This document shows positions 1,901 through 33,364 of a DNA stretch of 41,291 nt, piece by piece. Position 1 is the first letter of the stretch, and each line of letters opens with the position of its first letter. The DNA comes from Candidatus Saccharibacteria bacterium RIFCSPHIGHO2_12_FULL_47_16b (GTDB taxonomy: Bacteria > Patescibacteriota > Saccharimonadia > Saccharimonadales > UBA10212). A program made the translations under genes and the position numbers. The notes beneath the pieces were generated by a model. The model was not told where the DNA came from and made no database searches. It saw only the letters and a program-made list of their open reading frames with translations. The stretch is taken from the NCBI GenBank assembly GCA_001790525.1, contig MGCU01000029.1, positions 3,921 to 45,211 of the forward strand. Direction: 5' to 3'.

Positions 1901-3154
1901 GTGGTTAAATTTGAAGCAACAAGTATCTGTATTTTGGGTCGACAGCCAGCTCTGGGCTTGGCCGAGCTGGAAAGCTTGTATGGTGCCAAACGTGTAGAAC
2001 CAATTGAAGGTGCAGCTTTACTGGACGTTGAGGCGGCCGATATCAATTTCAAACGGTTAGGCGGAACTTTAAAAGTCGCCAAAATACTGACACTTTTACC
2101 CTACACCGACTGGAATAGCCTGATCGACCATCTTAAACAAAATGTTCCAAAGCACTTAAATCATCTGTCGAAAGGCAAATTTCGCCTGGGGTTAAGTGTC
2201 TATGGCCTTAATGTTCCGCCAAAACAGATTAATTACAATCTGCTAGCTATCAAAAAAATCATTCGCCAAAGTGGTCGATCCGTTCGGGTGGTGCCTAACA
2301 AAACAGCCATCCTTAATACAGCTCAAGTCCTGCATAATAAACTAACTCATCTTGGCGGCTGGGAGCTGCTGTTAATAAAAAATGGTCAGCAGACTATTTT
2401 GGCGCAAACATTATTTGTTCAAAACATTGAAGCTTATGCGGCCCGTGATCAGGCCCGGCCAAAACGCGATGCCCGCGTCGGTATGCTGCCTCCGAAACTT
2501 GCCCAGATTTTAATTAACTTAGCGATGGGCAAGTTTGAGTCATCAGTCGCTAGTCATCAGTCATCAGTCAAAAAACTAGCGACTAGCGACTCGCGACCAA
2601 TGACTAAACGCGCTCTGCGCGTTTTGGATCCTTTTTGTGGTACAGGTGTAATCCTGCAGGAAGCATTACTTATGGGCTACAGCGTTATGGGTACTGATAT
2701 CGAGCAACGGATGATTGATTATTCTACCGTTAATATCAAATGGCTGATTGACAAATATCCGCAGATTGAGGGCTTCGTAGTCATTGAAAAATCCGATGCC
2801 ACCACTTATAAATGGCCGCCTTTTTCGGCAGTAACTTCCGAAGTTTTCTTGGGTCGACCGCTGGCTTCCCTACCTGACGAAGCCAACTTAAAAAAGATAA
2901 TCAACGACGCCAATACCATAATTAAAATATTCCTAAAAAACATTGTCACGCAATTGCAGCCGAGACAGCGAATGATCCTGGCTGTACCGGCCTGGCGAGT
3001 TAAAAACGGTTTTAAACATTTGCCATTAGTTGACCATTTAACAGAGATGGGATATACTCGTCTGGACTTAGTTCATGCTAAAAGAGACGAGCTGATTTAT
3101 TTTAGAGAAAATCAAATCGTTGCCCGAGAAATTTTAACATTGGAGAAGGCCTAG
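1901..3154 (+). CDS. TRM11/Trm-G10-like RNA (guanine-N2) methyltransferase family protein
   Basis: 417 aa; SAM motif VLDPFCGTGVILQEALLMGYSVMGTDIEQRMIDYSTVNIKWL; the canonical D/NPPY motif is replaced by SEVFLGRPL. Confidence 0.75.
   Translation: MVKFEATSICILGRQPALGLAELESLYGAKRVEPIEGAALLDVEAADINFKRLGGTLKVAKILTLLPYTDWNSLIDHLKQNVPKHLNHLSKGKFRLGLSVYGLNVPPKQINYNLLAIKKIIRQSGRSVRVVPNKTAILNTAQVLHNKLTHLGGWELLLIKNGQQTILAQTLFVQNIEAYAARDQARPKRDARVGMLPPKLAQILINLAMGKFESSVASHQSSVKKLATSDSRPMTKRALRVLDPFCGTGVILQEALLMGYSVMGTDIEQRMIDYSTVNIKWLIDKYPQIEGFVVIEKSDATTYKWPPFSAVTSEVFLGRPLASLPDEANLKKIINDANTIIKIFLKNIVTQLQPRQRMILAVPAWRVKNGFKHLPLVDHLTEMGYTRLDLVHAKRDELIYFRENQIVAREILTLEKA
2538..2605. repeat. Intragenic paired heptamer array (core AGTCnnn) in the methyltransferase gene
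   Basis: Left arm agtcatc|agtcgct|agtcatc|agtcatc|agtcaaa (2538-2572); right arm 2578-2605, whose reverse complement is agtcatt|ggtcgcg|agtcgct|agtcgct. Confidence 0.88.
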
Positions 3155-3777: not shown

Positions 3778-3957
3778 AAACGACTGCGCCGCGCTGACCT
3801 GCCAGCCAGCCAAGCCGGCTGCACCGTCATCGCTTTTGGCGCATTACGGTGTCAGAGCCTGCGGCACTCCTTCAACGTACCATCCCGTACGTCTCAGTCC
3901 GTTCCTCGGTTCTTCCTTGTACTGCGATCAAACGCAGCCGTTTTACCTTCGACGATA
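3765..3957. repeat. GC-rich convergent intergenic segment bounded by about 25-bp imperfect inverted repeats
   Basis: Left TATCGTCGAATAAAAACGACTGCG (3765-3788); reverse complement of right (3933-3957) TATCGTCGAAGGTAAAACGGCTGCG. Confidence 0.65.
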
Positions 3958-3965
3958 TTCTGATT

Positions 3966-5573
3966 TTATTTTTTGGCGGCGGCCCGTAGTAAACCAAGAT
4001 AGAGCGGATGGGGTTTGTTTGGTCTGGAGCGGAACTCCGGATGAGCCTGGGTACCAATGTAGAATGGATGATTAGGTGCTTCAACTAGCTCGACTAGATT
4101 GCCATCCGGTGATAAGCCTGAAGCCTTAATACCCCATTTTTCAAATAGGTCGCGGTAAGAGTTATTGACCTCATAACGATGACGGTGCCGATCAATAATT
4201 TTTTCTTGTCCAAATAGTTTACGAGCTAAAGTTCCCCGCTCTAAAACAGCCGCATAATCACCTAGACGCATGGTGCCACCGGTTTCTTCTTTTCCGATTT
4301 GTTCGGCCATAGTCGAAATTACCGGATCCGGCGTAGCCGGTTCAAATTCGGTCGAGTTAGCCTTTTTGAGGCCCGCCCGGCGGGCCATGGCGATGACCGA
4401 CATCTGCATACCAAGGCAAATACCAAGGTAAGGCAGTTTATTTTCATAAGCCCAGCCGGCCGCCCAAATTTTACCTTCACTGCCCCTCGAGCCAAAACCG
4501 GGCATGCCGACCAAACCATCGAGGGTTTTGAGTTTAGCTCGCTCTTTGACATTTTTAATTAGACCTTCGGCATCAACCCAGACAATTTCAATATTGACTT
4601 CGGCTGCCCAAGCTGCCGCTTTCAAAGCCTCGCAAATCGACATATAAGTGTCCTGATTATCTAGATACTTGGCAATTAAGCCAATTCGGACGGTCTTTTT
4701 ATAATCGGTTAAAGCGCTTTTGACAACTTTTTTCCACTCTTCGACATCGGACTTACGGCGTCTAATACCAAGTTTGTCGGAGATGACATCGGCAATTTTG
4801 GCATTTTCCAAAGATAGTGGCACTTGATAAATGGTTGGTGCATTAGGCAGCAGCACGATAGCCTCGGGCTCCACTCCGGTATGCAAACTAAGCTTATTGA
4901 CAGCCGAACGAGGCGGCGTAGCCTCGGAACGAGCGACCAGAACATCCGGCACTATACCTAGTCCGCGCAGCTCGCGGACAGCGTTTTGGGCCGGTTTAGT
5001 TTTGAACTCGGCGCTGGCACCAATAAATGGAATATAAACCACGTGAATATAAAGACAATTCTCGCCGCCAACCCGCAGGTTCATCTCGCGGATGGCCTCG
5101 ATAAAGCTCAAGGATTCATAATCGCCAACCGTGCCGCCGATTTCAACTATGTGAATATCGAAACCTTTTGCGGTATTTTCTATTTCTTCTTGAATGGCAT
5201 CGGTCACGTGCGGAATAATTTGGACGGTTTTGCCTAAGTAGCGGCCGGAGCGTTCGTCGGCGATAACCTTTTGTAAAATTCGACCGCTCATCAGACTGCT
5301 GGCCGAATTTAGTTCAATATCTAAAAAGCGCTCATAGTGGCCTAAGTCGAGGTCGGCCTCGGCGCCATCATGGGTTACAAAAACTTCGCCATGTTCTGCC
5401 GGATTAAGCGTGCCGGCATCAACATTTAGATAAGGATCGCACTTTTGGATGTTAACGGAAAGACCACGGCTTTTAAGGATGTTGCCAAGTGAGGCGGCGG
5501 TGATACCCTTACCGACGCCTGATAAAACGCCGCCGGTGACAAAAATATATTTTGTTTCGGGCCTAGCCGCCAC
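3966..5573 (-). CDS. pyrG: CTP synthase
   Basis: 535 aa; KYIFVTGGVLSGVGKGITAASLGNILKSRG, CDPYLNVDAGTLNPAEHGEVFVTHDGAEADLDLGHYERF, glutaminase LGICLGMQM. Confidence 0.98.
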   Translation of the reverse strand: MAARPETKYIFVTGGVLSGVGKGITAASLGNILKSRGLSVNIQKCDPYLNVDAGTLNPAEHGEVFVTHDGAEADLDLGHYERFLDIELNSASSLMSGRILQKVIADERSGRYLGKTVQIIPHVTDAIQEEIENTAKGFDIHIVEIGGTVGDYESLSFIEAIREMNLRVGGENCLYIHVVYIPFIGASAEFKTKPAQNAVRELRGLGIVPDVLVARSEATPPRSAVNKLSLHTGVEPEAIVLLPNAPTIYQVPLSLENAKIADVISDKLGIRRRKSDVEEWKKVVKSALTDYKKTVRIGLIAKYLDNQDTYMSICEALKAAAWAAEVNIEIVWVDAEGLIKNVKERAKLKTLDGLVGMPGFGSRGSEGKIWAAGWAYENKLPYLGICLGMQMSVIAMARRAGLKKANSTEFEPATPDPVISTMAEQIGKEETGGTMRLGDYAAVLERGTLARKLFGQEKIIDRHRHRYEVNNSYRDLFEKWGIKASGLSPDGNLVELVEAPNHPFYIGTQAHPEFRSRPNKPHPLYLGLLRAAAKK

Positions 5574-5767: not shown

Positions 5768-6999
5768 ATTTTGCTACGCAAAATCTCGTAGGCTTTGTCT
5801 TTTTGGGGATCGCGGCCGGCTTTTTTATCATCATCAGTTTGGGTTACTTGAATATCAGGGGTAATGCCCTGTTTATCGATATTAGCGCCTTTTGGTGTGA
5901 ACCAGCGGGCAATCGTCACTTTCAGGGCGGCCCCACCAAGTAGTCGTTCAATTTGTTGAACGCTGCCTTTGCCAAAGCTTTTTTCACCAACAATAGTCGC
6001 CACGCTGTTATCGTGTAGAGCGCCGGCAATAATTTCGCTGGCGCTGGCGCTGCCGCCATTAATGACAATCGCCGTTGGCAGACCGAGCAAGGTAGCGTTG
6101 CCGGATGCATAATCGGTTGACAAAACTTGACTGCCGCGACGTTCGGATACAACTACCTTGCCCTTTTCCAGCCACAGGCTCGATACATCTATGGCGCCGG
6201 ATAAGTAGCCGCCCGGGTTATTACGTAGATCTAACACTACAGCTTTGACGCCTTGTTGTTTAAAGTTGGTTGCGGTCTTGGCGGCAATAGAGACTGTTTC
6301 GGCTGTAAACTGGCTGATTTTTATATAGCCAATGCTGCCATCAACTTTTGACTCCACGCTTGGTAGAGTAATTTGGGTCCGGGTGATAGTGACATCGAAT
6401 GGCTTATCGTTACCACGGATAATAGTTAGCTTGACTTGACTATCGGCCGGACCGCGGATTTTTCTAACGGCTGCACTGACAGTTAATTCAGCTGTACTTT
6501 GGCCGTCGATGGCGCCAATTATATCTTTGGGTTGCAGACCAGCCTTCTCCGCCGGATAACCAGCTAGCGGCGCTACCACTACAATATTGTTATTTTCATC
6601 GGTGCCAAGTTCGGCGCCAATGCCGGTAAAGGTACCTGATAGTTGATTGTCCAGCTCTTTGGCATCGGCCGCATTAAGGTATTCGGTGTAGGGATCATTG
6701 GCTGCTTGGACCAAGCCGAACTTTAGACCATCTAGCAATTTACTAGTGTCTAAACTGCCATCAAAATTCGACTTTAATAGATTATAAACTTGGTCAACCG
6801 ATGAGTAATCCAGAGCCGTTGGAGTGCTTTTGGGAGCGCTTAAACCCTTAAGGTTAATTTTATCGCCGCGGCCAATAGACACACCGGCCGCGAAAATCGC
6901 CAAAACAAACAACAGGCTAATAATTATTTTAAGAACCGGCCAGCTCTTTTTGCGGGCAACTGTCTCATTCACCGGATTGTAGTTATTCAAGCCGTCCAT
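5761..6999 (-). CDS. S41 family C-terminal processing peptidase with PDZ domain
   Basis: YVLNSNFDGSLD-type N-term region, PDZ GIGAELGTDENNNIVVVAPLAGYPAEKAGLQPKDIIGAIDG, catalytic NGGSASASEIIAGALHDNSVATIVGEKSFGKGSVQ. Confidence 0.96.
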   Translation of the reverse strand: MDGLNNYNPVNETVARKKSWPVLKIIISLLFVLAIFAAGVSIGRGDKINLKGLSAPKSTPTALDYSSVDQVYNLLKSNFDGSLDTSKLLDGLKFGLVQAANDPYTEYLNAADAKELDNQLSGTFTGIGAELGTDENNNIVVVAPLAGYPAEKAGLQPKDIIGAIDGQSTAELTVSAAVRKIRGPADSQVKLTIIRGNDKPFDVTITRTQITLPSVESKVDGSIGYIKISQFTAETVSIAAKTATNFKQQGVKAVVLDLRNNPGGYLSGAIDVSSLWLEKGKVVVSERRGSQVLSTDYASGNATLLGLPTAIVINGGSASASEIIAGALHDNSVATIVGEKSFGKGSVQQIERLLGGAALKVTIARWFTPKGANIDKQGITPDIQVTQTDDDKKAGRDPQKDKAYEILRSKIQ

Positions 7000-7043
7000 G
7001 AAGGTTACGGTTATTATAACAGGTGCTTAAACAACCTAGGTGG

Positions 7044-8168
7044 CTACGGAAAGTGAATGAATACCAAGTTACCAACTCGAATTCTAGCCATACTATAGGT
7101 ACCTTGCCAATCAACATTAAACTGACTGACCAAGATGGTGCCGTCATCGTAAACAGCCTCAACATAAGCAGTATGCCCATAATAACCAGCGTTACTGACA
7201 GCCACGTCACCAACTTGGGGATTACCGTCAACTGGAATACCGGCTGCCAGAGCATTATCATCCCACTGGTTGGCATTGCCCCGCCCGCCCCAGTAAGGCA
7301 TGTAACGGCCGGAGGCGGCTACTCGGTAAGCCGTCCAGGAAACACATTCGCGATTATACATACCCCAACTGTCAATAATGCTATCCATCGGGGCGTTACA
7401 CCAGTCCTGCGGATAAATATCACAGCGGCTGGTTTGGATAATTTGGCCACCGCCAAACAGTCGAGCATTGGTAGCCGCCTGCTGACGCCTAAGCTCGCTG
7501 ATTTGGGTTTGATTGGCCTTAATTTGAGAGTCAAATGAAGCCTTCTGACTCTCCGTATAAGCCAACATTCTGGATTGTTCGTCTTGGCTAGAGGCTAACT
7601 GGGCTTTCTGGGCTTCCTGTTCATTAATTATAATTTGAACTTGTCGTTGCTGACTTTCCAGTTCAACCTTTATCTGGGTTATCTTTTCAAGCGTGGTTTT
7701 GACTTTTCTCTGAACAGAATTGCGATAGGCTTGCTTATCAACAAATTCACTTAGATCATTACTGCTAGCTAGGATTTCTAAAGTGGAAATCTGGCCTTCA
7801 AGATACATAGTTTTAATATTCTGTCCAAGAATATACTTCTGATGGGTAAGTTCGGCTTGTGTAGCGTCGATTTGTCTTTGTAGTTCATCATTCTTACGCT
7901 GATTGTCAAGGATGGCTTGGTGTATACCATTAATCTCAATTTGCAGCTTGTTAATGGCATCCTGATAGCTGGCAGCTTCAGCCGCCAACGAACCGGAACG
8001 CTGCTGCAAACCACTATTTTGGTTTTGCAGTTCGCGGATTTGATCATCAAATTGATCAGCCCCTACTAAACCACTCAAGATAATGCCAAACGCTAGAAGC
8101 AAAGCGATGCCAGCGGTGCTAGCCGTTTTTCTATAAGCCAGTAATTTTTTGATTTTTTGTTTTTGCAT
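7044..8168 (-). CDS. Secreted coiled-coil CHAP-domain peptidoglycan hydrolase (PcsB/CwlO-like architecture)
   Basis: N-terminal TM, long coiled coil, then NRECVSWTAYRVAASGRYMPYWGGRGNANQWDDNA...GDVAVSNAGYYGHTAYVEAVYDDGTILVSQFN. Confidence 0.9.
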   Translation of the reverse strand: MQKQKIKKLLAYRKTASTAGIALLLAFGIILSGLVGADQFDDQIRELQNQNSGLQQRSGSLAAEAASYQDAINKLQIEINGIHQAILDNQRKNDELQRQIDATQAELTHQKYILGQNIKTMYLEGQISTLEILASSNDLSEFVDKQAYRNSVQRKVKTTLEKITQIKVELESQQRQVQIIINEQEAQKAQLASSQDEQSRMLAYTESQKASFDSQIKANQTQISELRRQQAATNARLFGGGQIIQTSRCDIYPQDWCNAPMDSIIDSWGMYNRECVSWTAYRVAASGRYMPYWGGRGNANQWDDNALAAGIPVDGNPQVGDVAVSNAGYYGHTAYVEAVYDDGTILVSQFNVDWQGTYSMARIRVGNLVFIHFP

Positions 8169-9190: not shown

Positions 9191-9201
9191 GGCCTCCGGC
9201 C
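9191..9201 (-). promoter_or_regulatory. SD-containing mini-hairpin GGCC-GGA-GGCC upstream of ftsX
   Basis: Minus strand ggccggaggccgtctATG; GGAGG straddles loop and stem. Confidence 0.5.
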
Positions 9202-9202
9202 T

Positions 9203-9320
9203 CATTTTTCATTTCCCATTTGCCATTAGCCGAATTATTAACCATTAGCCATTTATCAAATGTTTTAGTAAATGATAAATAATACTTAATTGGTAAATGT
9301 GAATTGGGAAATGGTGAATG
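9203..9320. repeat. Intergenic paired heptamer array (core CATTTnn)
   Basis: Left cattttt|catttcc|catttgc|cattagc...cattagc|catttat; right arm gtaaatg|ataaata...gtaaatg|tgaattg|ggaaatg|gtgaatg. Confidence 0.85.
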
Positions 9321-19252: not shown

Positions 19253-19279
19253 ACTAGTCTTTAGTCACTAGTCGCTAGC
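19253..19279. repeat. Short remnant of the AGTCnnn heptamer word
   Basis: actagtctttagtcactagtcgctagct; shares AGTCGCTAG with the array inside the methyltransferase gene. Confidence 0.5.
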
Positions 19280-21546: not shown

Positions 21547-21561
21547 GCTGCCTCCGGCAGC
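21547..21561 (-). promoter_or_regulatory. SD-containing mini-hairpin GCTGCC-GGA-GGCAGC upstream of the ABC permease
   Basis: Perfect 6-bp stem, GGA loop, 5 nt from the ATG at 21541. Confidence 0.6.
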
Positions 21562-21678
21562 ATTTACCATTTGCCATTTACCATTTGCCAAATTATTAAT
21601 CATTGGCCATTTGTAAAGATATTTGGTAAATGATAAATGAAAAATTAATGTGAAATGTGAAATGTCAAATGAGAATTG
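21561..21678. repeat. Intergenic paired heptamer array (core CATTTnn)
   Basis: Left catttac|catttgc|catttac|catttgc (21561-21588); right gtaaatg|ataaatg...tgaaatg|tgaaatg|tcaaatg|agaattg (21626-21678). Confidence 0.9.
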
Positions 21679-26010: not shown

Positions 26011-26065
26011 GAGGTTCGAGGTTCGAGGTTCGAGATAGCTCTCCACTCTTCGCTCTCCACTCATG
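26011..26065. repeat. Intergenic heptamer array (gaggttc x3; opposed gctctcc|actcttc|gctctcc|actcatg)
   Basis: gaggttc at 26011-26031 exact; second arm 26038-26065 on a 7-nt period. Confidence 0.82.
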
Positions 26066-26852
26066 TGCTGAAATAAACGCTGAAAGCTAGGATATTGTTT
26101 AAACCATGCACCATGATTGGCGCATAAAGCGCGCCGGTTTTTTCGCGCAGATAAACCAAAACCAATGAGAGAACTAAAGTGCTAACGCCGGCCGCCCAAA
26201 GTAAGCCGTCATCGTCAGCGCCGGTTAAAAGATGGGCAGCGCCAAATAAAACGCTGGTGGTAAGACCGGCCACTACAAAACTCCAGCGGGCCCTTAAGGC
26301 GGAAAACAGGTAGCCTCTCATTAATATTTCTTCGCCGAGAGGCGGTAACACCACAAGCGCTACAAAGGCCAGAATTTTATCGGCAGTAAGCGTAACTGTC
26401 TTAAAACCAACATCTTGAGTTTGATCAACGTTATAAGACGGGAAAAGGGCCGTTAAAGAGGCGTTGACTACAACTAGAAGCACGAAGAAGGTGATAAATC
26501 CACCGACCGCCATCTTAAAATCACGGCTCTGCAGTCGCCTACCCCATCCAATATCGGTAAGATTTAATTTGCGTCTTTTCAGTAGCCACAGCACCGAGCC
26601 GATTGCCAGAAGTTCGGCAATCAAAATATAAAAGAACTGGGCAGTAGCTGAATAACCAAGTACCGAAACGGTTGGTGCGCGGCTTAGCCACACGGCTGCA
26701 AAAAGTTCAATTAAGAGAGCAGCGATTATTTGACTAAGCAGAAAGATTAACAAAGCGTTGGCAATCGCCCTAAGCGGATGCCCAAAACTCGCTTTGCTCG
26801 CTGAATTATGAATTATGAATTTAGAATCAGGAACTTTTTTTTCATTCTTCAT
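26061..26852 (-). CDS. CPBP (CAAX-type) intramembrane metalloprotease
   Basis: PPLGEEILMRGYLFSALRARWSFVVAGLTTSVLFGAAHL; multi-TM. The N-terminal ~22 aa are repeat-encoded, so the start is uncertain. Confidence 0.9.
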   Translation of the reverse strand: MKNEKKVPDSKFIIHNSASKASFGHPLRAIANALLIFLLSQIIAALLIELFAAVWLSRAPTVSVLGYSATAQFFYILIAELLAIGSVLWLLKRRKLNLTDIGWGRRLQSRDFKMAVGGFITFFVLLVVVNASLTALFPSYNVDQTQDVGFKTVTLTADKILAFVALVVLPPLGEEILMRGYLFSALRARWSFVVAGLTTSVLFGAAHLLTGADDDGLLWAAGVSTLVLSLVLVYLREKTGALYAPIMVHGLNNILAFSVYFST

Positions 26853-26868
26853 TCTTTATTCGCCATTC
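26803..26868. repeat. Paired heptamer array (core GAATnnn) over the 5' end of the CPBP protease gene
   Basis: Left gaattat|gaattat|gaattta|gaatcag (26803-26830); right ttcattc|ttcattc|tttattc|gccattc (26841-26868). Confidence 0.92.
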
Positions 26869-26877
26869 TGGTTTTTG

Positions 26878-28069: not shown

Positions 28070-28147
28070 GAGGGTCGAGGGTCGAGGGTCGAGGGTCGAG
28101 GGTCGAGGGTCGAAACTATACCCTACACCCTATCCCCTAGACCCTAA
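28070..28147. repeat. Paired heptamer array: six exact GAGGGTC units opposed by degenerate ACCCTAN units
   Basis: gagggtc x6 at 28070-28111; accctac|accctat|cccctag|accctaa at 28120-28147. Confidence 0.95.
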
Positions 28148-31930: not shown

Positions 31931-32021
31931 TTTTACCTTTTACCATTAGCCGTTTACCATAGAAAACGGAAAACGGATCATGGAGAACGCAATGAAAACG
32001 GAAAACGGAAAACGGAAAACG
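31931..32021. repeat. Heptamer array (GAAAACG) over the 5' end of the P-loop kinase gene, with an opposed arm
   Basis: ttttacc|ttttacc|attagcc|gtttacc (31931-31958); gaaaacg x2 (31962-31975); gaaaacg x4 (31994-32021). Confidence 0.92.
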
Positions 32022-32534
32022 GTCGGAAGGTACTTGATTACCGGTGTGGCCGGCAGCGGCAAATCGACTATTGCCTACGAGTTAAGCCGGCGCGGTTATG
32101 CGGCCTATGATACCGATGCCGGCTTCAGTTATTACGCCAATAAACAGACCGGCCAAAAAGTGACCCGCCCGCTGCATCCAACTTTGGAATGGTACGACAA
32201 GCACGAGCGGGTGTTTGATGAAAAAGTACTGCAAAACCTATTCAAAAAGCATCAGGACGAAGATTTATTGATTTGTTCTATAACGGCCAATCAAAAGAAA
32301 TACTACCCACAGTTCGACAAAATTTTTCTACTGACGGCTGACGATGAACTACTGGCCCATCGACTGCAAACCCGGACAACCAGCCATTTTGGCAAACATC
32401 CGGTTGATTTCCACCGTGTTTTTGCCGGTAAACAAGCCTGGGAAAATGAAGTCCGAGCCGCCGGCGCTTTCGAAATCGATTCCTCAAAACCAATTAAAAA
32501 GGTTGTTGATCAGATTCTTAAACAACTTAAATGA
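31980..32534 (+). CDS. P-loop nucleoside/shikimate-type kinase-like ATPase
   Basis: GRYLITGVAGSGKSTIAYELSRRGYAAYDTDAGF; the N-terminal MENAMKTENGKRKTV is repeat-encoded; stop overlaps the prmC ATG. Confidence 0.82.
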   Translation: MENAMKTENGKRKTVGRYLITGVAGSGKSTIAYELSRRGYAAYDTDAGFSYYANKQTGQKVTRPLHPTLEWYDKHERVFDEKVLQNLFKKHQDEDLLICSITANQKKYYPQFDKIFLLTADDELLAHRLQTRTTSHFGKHPVDFHRVFAGKQAWENEVRAAGAFEIDSSKPIKKVVDQILKQLK

Positions 32535-33364
32535 CAATTAAAGGCTGGCTAGCCCAAGCCGAGGCTAAGCTTAAGCTGGCTGATATTGGTACAGCACGGC
32601 TTGATGTTCTGATATTGCTGGAAGACGAAACCGGCAAGGACCGATCCTGGTTACTGGCCCACCCCGAAACTGTCTTACAAGGACCGTCCTTGAAGAGGTT
32701 GGATAAAAAAATTAAGCGGCGGGCTAAGCATGAGCCGCTGGCTTATATTCGTGGTTTTACGGAATTCTATGGTCGAAAATTCAAAGTCAACAAGCACGTT
32801 TTAGAACCCCGTCCCGAATCGGAAACGATGGTCGAGCTATTGCTCGACCTAGTAGACAGTAGACAGCAGGCAGTAGACAGTAGTTTACAGATTGTGGATG
32901 TGGGGACTGGGAGTGGGGCCTTGGCCATTACAACCAAGCTGGAGATTTCGGAGGCTGAAGTCATTGCCACTGACATTGATCCAAACTGTTTGGCGGTTGC
33001 CCATCAAAACGCTAAAGACCACGGCGTCAAAATCAAATTCCTCCAAGGCAACCTTTTCGTACCCCTCTACTCCCTACTCACTACACCCTACACCCTAATT
33101 TGCAACCTGCCTTATGTGCCTGATAAATGGCGAATTAATAAGGCCGCGGCGCGCGAGCCGAAAAAGGCTATTTTCGGCGGTCCTGACGGCCTTGACATTT
33201 ACCGCCGGCTTTTTGAACAACTCTCCAAAACGCCACAAAAAGCGGATTTCATACTTACTGAATCACTGCCGCCACAGCACGAAAAACTCGTCAAAATCGC
33301 TAAATCAACCGGCTATAAACTAAAACAAAACTCAGATCTAGTTCAATTATTTGAGCTGCTCTAG
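32531..33364 (+). CDS. prmC: Peptide chain release factor N5-glutamine methyltransferase
   Basis: EPLAYIRGFTEFYGRKFKVNKHVLEPRPESETMVELLLDL, IVDVGTGSGALAITTKLE, CNLPYVPD; downstream of prfA. Confidence 0.93.
   Translation: MTIKGWLAQAEAKLKLADIGTARLDVLILLEDETGKDRSWLLAHPETVLQGPSLKRLDKKIKRRAKHEPLAYIRGFTEFYGRKFKVNKHVLEPRPESETMVELLLDLVDSRQQAVDSSLQIVDVGTGSGALAITTKLEISEAEVIATDIDPNCLAVAHQNAKDHGVKIKFLQGNLFVPLYSLLTTPYTLICNLPYVPDKWRINKAAAREPKKAIFGGPDGLDIYRRLFEQLSKTPQKADFILTESLPPQHEKLVKIAKSTGYKLKQNSDLVQLFELL
32851..32885. repeat. Intragenic heptamer array (AGTAGAC) in prmC
   Basis: agtagac|agtagac|agcaggc|agtagac|agtagtt, encoding VDSRQQAVDSS. Confidence 0.9.
33068..33095. repeat. Second intragenic heptamer array (TACACCC) in prmC
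   Basis: tactccc|tactcac|tacaccc|tacaccc, encoding YSLLTTPYT just before the NLPY motif. Confidence 0.85.

Follow-up and report, generated by a model that had tools for sequence, protein, structure and literature searches.

The palindrome at positions 2538-2605 of the window, a 41,291-nucleotide stretch of a Candidatus Saccharibacteria genome, is probably a small coding palindromic element with arms formed by facing arrays of a degenerate 7-nt word, inserted in-frame in a tolerant loop of its host protein, and a member of a class of heptamer-armed elements dispersed in one family of Saccharibacteria. The hairpin exemplifies a class found across the genome, which reaches beyond what the first-pass annotation of the window had in view.

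The hairpin and its host protein

In the palindrome, a 4-nt loop separates five AGTCNNN units from their five inverted counterparts, and the units keep an exact 7-nt register (Table 1). The AGTC words of the left arm start at positions 2538, 2545, 2552, 2559, and 2566, and the inverted units at 2574 (AACT), 2581 and 2588 (GACT), 2595 (GACC), and 2602 (GACT, ending at 2605). The first-pass annotation had described AGTCNNN units with inverted counterparts, and both arms are borne out by the sequence and by TRF. It had also placed the encoded peptide just before the motif VLDPFCGTG, and the in-frame translation, SSVASHQSSVKKLATSDSRPM, is correct. Its reading of the palindrome as inserted in-frame into the linker of a TRM11-like gene is supported by the translation of the open reading frame and by the comparison of orthologues. 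The RNA fold of the 74-nt stretch is a single hairpin with 7-nt periodic stems and an energy of -25.9 kcal/mol, compared to -10.6 +/- 2.6 kcal/mol for shuffled sequences (z -5.85; 0 of 200 shuffles as good). Folded as DNA with its flanks, the hairpin has a z of -3.2. In one unit of the right arm a TAG would fall in frame; the codon there is TCG, and TTG, with T at the same place, in the related genome G006. The C at position 2592 avoids an in-frame stop codon (TAG).

The five top PDB matches of the host protein in Foldseek are archaeal Trm11 (best E 2e-14). Sequence families match the protein weakly, and the NCBIfam match to TIGR01177 is below the cut-off. An orthologue is present in 60 of 61 related genomes. 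Trm11 enzymes are expected to carry a catalytic DPPY motif. At its expected position, amino acids 310-325, the protein has SEVFLGRPLASLP, and the aligned relatives share E-x-x-L-G-x-P at that site; judged from these residues, methyltransferase activity is therefore uncertain. The AlphaFold model of the host protein is of moderate confidence (mean pLDDT 64). The lowest values are predicted for residues 213-234, which form the insert, and would fit the disordered linker anticipated in the annotation.

Period-seven arrays across the genome

Arrays were scored in a 521 kb sample (about 90% coding) of the 794 kb genome, which is assembled in 29 contigs. Strict scoring of the sample identified 55 arrays with a period of 7 and 36 with a period of 14. 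Between 2 and 30, periods other than multiples of seven have zero to six arrays each. Simulated sequence gave no period-7 arrays at the strict threshold. Tandem 7-nt units are in excess over other unit lengths, which is the mark of heptanucleotide simple sequence repeats (SSRs). Most of the strict arrays are positioned between genes, and about 20 are inside real open reading frames. Looser scoring gives 139 stretches, including two that are runs of N; 90 are intergenic, 30 are inside open reading frames, and 19 overlap them partly. The words vary between loci, including AGTCNNN, CAATTNN, TAGNAAN, CTANACC, GTAAACN, and others, and are often arranged as inverted pairs. An ungapped stem score of at least 10 is reached by 25 of 122 array clusters, compared to 1 of 122 random places.

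The arrays and elements are dispersed over distant loci. This genome is matched exactly at 25 places, in part overlapping, by the pattern AGTC(N3) x4, and nowhere by the reversed control. The annotation had proposed that the word is shared with distant loci and can enter coding DNA. This holds. The AGTC hairpin occurs in about six genes: TRM11-like, MnmA, TilS, PilD-like, TruB, and L1, where it forms an N-terminal extension. The intergenic recurrence that it had listed is real, with AGTC at 19256, 19263, and 19270, but consists of a single arm. An AGTC array is also present in a sugar-isomerase-like open reading frame. Judged by eye, the AGTC hairpin encodes similar SxQSSV...RLxTxDxR peptides in several genes. 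Across the arrays as a whole, some intergenic copies align over 115-147 nt with about 88-90% identity, reaching past the heptamers. Arrays occur in 29% of tandem, 13% of convergent, and 16% of divergent intergenic gaps, and are centred in the gap. The orientation of the gaps gives no support to a terminator role.

Table 1. Positions in the window of the host gene, the parts of the hairpin, and further heptamer arrays and elements
Feature	Position	Strand	Sequence or words	Evidence or remark
Host open reading frame, Trm11-fold methyltransferase-like, 417 aa	1901..3154	+		Foldseek, NCBIfam, orthologues
Left arm	2538..2569	+	AGTCATC AGTCGCT AGTCATC AGTCATC AGTC	Sequence, TRF
Loop	2570..2573	+	AAAA	Sequence, RNA fold
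Right arm	2574..2605	+	AACTAGC GACTAGC GACTCGC GACCAAT GACT	Sequence, TRF, G006 orthologue
Dispersed heptamer-armed element	9192..9313		CATTTNN	77% identical to 21550-21671
Array, single arm, intergenic	19253..19279	+	AGTCNNN
Second copy of the CATTTNN heptamer-armed element	21550..21671		CATTTNN
Arrays spanning the N-terminal codons of ORF 26061-26852 and DNA upstream of it	26802..26869	-	TGAATTA / TTCATTC
Array, intergenic	28070..28146		GAGGGTC x6, then CTANACC
Heptamer element at start of ORF 31980-32534	31962..32022	+	GAAAACG	Without counterpart in congener G001
Array in-frame in prmC ORF (32531-33364), directly before VDVGTGSG	32851..32883	+	AGTAGAC	PrmC is an NCBIfam match over the cut-off
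Second in-frame array of the prmC ORF (32531-33364), before NLPY	33067..33097	+	CTACACC

Other repeat families occur in these genomes. A non-heptamer dispersed element at 3785-3950 of the window aligns over 146 nt with a copy at locus L017 (77% identity), and similar sequence is present in gaps of the genomes G001, G004, and G015. Further stem-loop families are positioned at L077, L126, L138, and L155 (G001) and at loci of this genome. The families CATCCCGATTAGA...TCTAACGGGATAG, located near start codons, and CCGCACCAAAACCTGAG...TTTTGGTGCGGGG differ in presence between congeners. A 40-nt near-perfect palindrome, CATGTCCATAATTACGACATATGTCGTAATTATGGACATG, found at L074 894-1205 and L018 745-887, belongs to a group of eight gaps.

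Insert slots and their words in related genomes

In-frame arrays interrupt the genes of TRM11-like, MnmA, TilS, TruB, PilD-like, L1, TsaD, PrmC, ArgS, TrmD, Fpg, and other proteins. Nine of the ten hosts tested (PrmC, MnmA, TilS, TsaD, TruB, L1, TrmD, ArgS, and Fpg) have NCBIfam matches over the cut-off; the PilD-like host has none and was named by eye from its sequence. Stop codons are avoided in the coding copies. A T precedes AGTC in 10 of 31 sense-strand units in open reading frames, compared to 36 of 53 intergenic units (Fisher p 0.003, unique units), as expected if selection acts against TAG.

The same slots are occupied by different words in related genomes. At the TRM11 linker, G006 shares the AGTC hairpin of this genome, and relatives of the same family carry other heptamer words: a GAATNNN hairpin in G010, ACAGCGG/ACGCTGT in G012, AGAAGAC in G001, and AGAAAAC in G015. 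In the remaining orthologues, including those of other families, the linker is short or unrelated; in accord with the annotation's reading of an insert, no linker sequence is common to all orthologues. The TsaD slot contains AGAAAAT..CTAATTC in this genome, G006, and G015, AGCCAAA..TTTCAGC in G001, AGCTAAT..AGCTATC in G002, GAAGAAT..ACTCCAT in G012, and AGAAGAT..ACCTTCC in G022, which belongs to a different family, whereas most other genomes have no insert. The slots of TilS and MnmA follow the TsaD pattern, and the sites in TilS, MnmA, and TsaD are empty or short in other families. Some syntenic intergenic gaps also contain paired arrays with changing words. Lag-7 identity is 0.45 in 24 insert-site sequences, compared to 0.24-0.28 at lags other than multiples of seven. 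As far as the aligned genes record it, the words change between species while the places of the inserts stay the same.

The arms of an insert match each other. For 14 inserts, the sum of alignment scores between an insert's own arms is 164, compared to 87 +/- 12 with permuted right arms (0 of 20,000 permutations), although the arm sets were delimited by hand, which may flatter the test. The observed pairing ranks first of 120 within TsaD and first of 24 within TRM11. The TRM11 inserts of this genome and G006 are identical in 27 of 27 nucleotides over the last left unit, the loop, and the first units of the right arm. The left arm in G006 consists of AGTCGGC x4, and the early right arm is unchanged, a difference in which homogenisation of one arm is visible.

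A tree of nine syntenic proteins places G006 as a sister to the clade of this genome, G001, G012, G004, and G015. Because G006 branches outside this clade, the simplest history of the TRM11 and TsaD slots is that an old insert persists in this genome and in G006 but gave way in G001 and G012, by rewriting or by replacement. It is possible that independent insertions occurred at one permissive site instead. Transfer of a whole gene between this lineage and G006, which could account for the shared TRM11 insert, is not favoured, as the flanks are about 55-74% identical. An assembly artefact was rejected, since in-frame inserts are present at the same slots in several independent genomes.

Palindromic elements also differ in presence between this genome and its congener G001; the gap at the arrays of ORF 26061-26852 measures 92 nt here and 23 nt in G001. 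The flanks of the elements differ by about 20-25% even in this congener, and are therefore too diverged for a target-site duplication to be readable.

It is unlikely that the arrays are ordinary heptanucleotide SSRs, in which slippage by 7 nt expands chance words at each locus, coding copies are tolerated, and nothing is mobile. Heptamers are over-represented among bacterial SSRs, a 7-nt polymerase footprint has been proposed (PMC4692102, PMC4679880), and the homogenised units within one arm in G006 agree with slippage. However, slippage alone leaves unexplained the opposing arms with the same core, the single AGTC word family at many loci, the similar 115-147 nt elements common to several loci, and the whole palindromes that are present or absent between congeners.

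Even less probable is a function of the hairpins as RNA or DNA structures that are maintained for regulation or protein binding (a terminator, an attenuator, or a site for a nucleoid or RNA-binding protein), with coding copies acting at the mRNA level, for instance through slower translation between domains. Slots are kept in part of the family, the words there changing with both arms still matched, and several inserts fold far better than shuffled sequences, which such a function would explain. In contrast, the preference for tandem gaps and the centring in the gap do not fit terminators or promoters, the slots are empty in many relatives, and coding copies occur in unrelated genes.

Arrays are present in samples, of about 6-40 kb each, from the genomes G001, G004, G006, G008, G010, and G015, and absent from samples of the same size range from 20 genomes of other families. 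The AGTC x4 pattern was found in 9 of 61 genomes, two of which, G048 and G052, belong to other families. A literature search on intergenic tandem repeats in Saccharibacteria found no earlier description.

The distribution bears on the proposal that the heptamer palindromes are REP-like sequences moved by the Y1 (IS200/IS605-type) transposases of the genome, as in REP/RAYT systems, which is very improbable. Y1_Tnp genes of RAYT size are present in G000 (this genome, three genes), G001, G002, G004, G006, G010, and G012, and absent from G003, G007, G009, G011, and G014, the samples of which also lack arrays. However, no Y1 match was found in the array-rich G015 or the array-bearing G008, and G005 has a Y1 gene but no arrays in its sample. 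Two of the three Y1 genes of this genome were inspected (L058, about 6580-7310, and L018, about 4610-5300), and their flanks contain the CAAGGACSGTCCTTG or CCAAGGAGGCTCCTTGG palindrome, not heptamer arrays, so that the flanks of these two genes do not support mobilisation of the heptamer elements by RAYT. The Y1 genes and the CAAGGACSGTCCTTG/CCAAGGAGGCTCCTTGG palindromes are likely to be a separate REP system.

Known repeat systems and a possible mechanism

The closest functional analogues of the dispersed heptamer-armed elements are the Rickettsia palindromic elements (RPE, including RPE-4, RPE-6, and RPE-7), extending to a change of element group within one slot; the two are likened by their features. 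RPEs are small palindromes inserted in-frame at tolerated sites of unrelated conserved genes, and at or close to such a site, orthologues in other species have an insert of a different group (PMC3767692, PMC10969869). Similarly, the heptamer elements are palindromic (RNA z -5.9 for the TRM11 insert, with matching arms), and they are in-frame in several unrelated conserved genes, in which the encoded peptides look alike by eye. Unlike in RPEs, the arms are arrays of degenerate 7-nt words, many word families coexist in one genome, the hosts are Saccharibacteria, and the inserts compared are about 70-85 nt long (46-84 nt in the arm-matching set), whereas RPEs have about 100-150 nt.

The intergenic heptamers TAACTGA of Beggiatoaceae, GGGAATC of Xanthomonas, and GGGGA(T/C)T of Nostoc resemble the arrays described here in being tandem 7-nt units, mostly intergenic, with few copies in open reading frames and some with fixed degenerate positions, but the reports on them describe a single dominant word for each genome, mostly in direct orientation (PMC4679880, PMC4692102). 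This genome has no single dominant direct-repeat word of the TAACTGA or GGGAATC kind; many words coexist, often as inverted pairs, and core enzymes are interrupted. Degenerate heptamers are also present on both sides of the P6b stem of the Nostoc tRNA-Leu(UAA) intron, the length of which varies by units. However, P6b is one non-coding intron locus, whereas the elements here are dispersed and present in protein genes. They share with REP/BIME sequences and MITEs that they are short dispersed palindromes, mostly intergenic, and present or absent between relatives, but no transposase or terminal repeat is tied to them. Arms made of heptamer arrays are not known to be typical of REPs or MITEs.

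The heptamer-armed elements may arrive as hairpins, copied or transposed by a putative enzyme, and genic copies would survive solely at loop sites that keep the reading frame open. Polymerase slippage by 7-nt steps would then homogenise the units within an arm, and the arms could be kept matched by hairpin-templated copying (quasi-palindrome correction) or by replacement of the whole element. Words would turn over, and period, length, and site would persist. In the protein, the insert would be a tolerated disordered linker rich in Ser, Gln, Lys, and Arg, with no required function. Weak folding of some inserts (z -0.7 for TsaD of this genome, -1.1 for TRM11 of G012) counts against this reading, and not every copy would depend on a stable hairpin. 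The published ideas on heptamer slippage (PMC4692102, PMC4679880) fit only the slippage step of this mechanism. An origin based on reverse transcription (retron, DGR, or group II intron) was rejected, as no match to the reverse transcriptase family PF00078 was found in this genome, which is 95% complete.

More speculatively, the inserts could be self-rewriting coding palindromes, in which the slot is fixed in core genes and both arms exchange their 7-nt word en bloc through a putative 7-nt-stepping, hairpin-templated copying activity, mainly in one lineage of Saccharibacteria. This process may also account for the RPE-4, RPE-6, and RPE-7 inserts of Rickettsia, which keep their slot while switching group. 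The slots allow repeated hits of a hotspot to be tested against the rewriting of one old insert, a choice left open for Rickettsia (PMC3767692). For annotation, differences in linker length between such proteins may stem from repeat DNA. Heptamer repeats of bacteria and palindromic elements read in-frame, described separately before, are here one object, which sits in a reduced genome, within core enzymes of translation and RNA modification.
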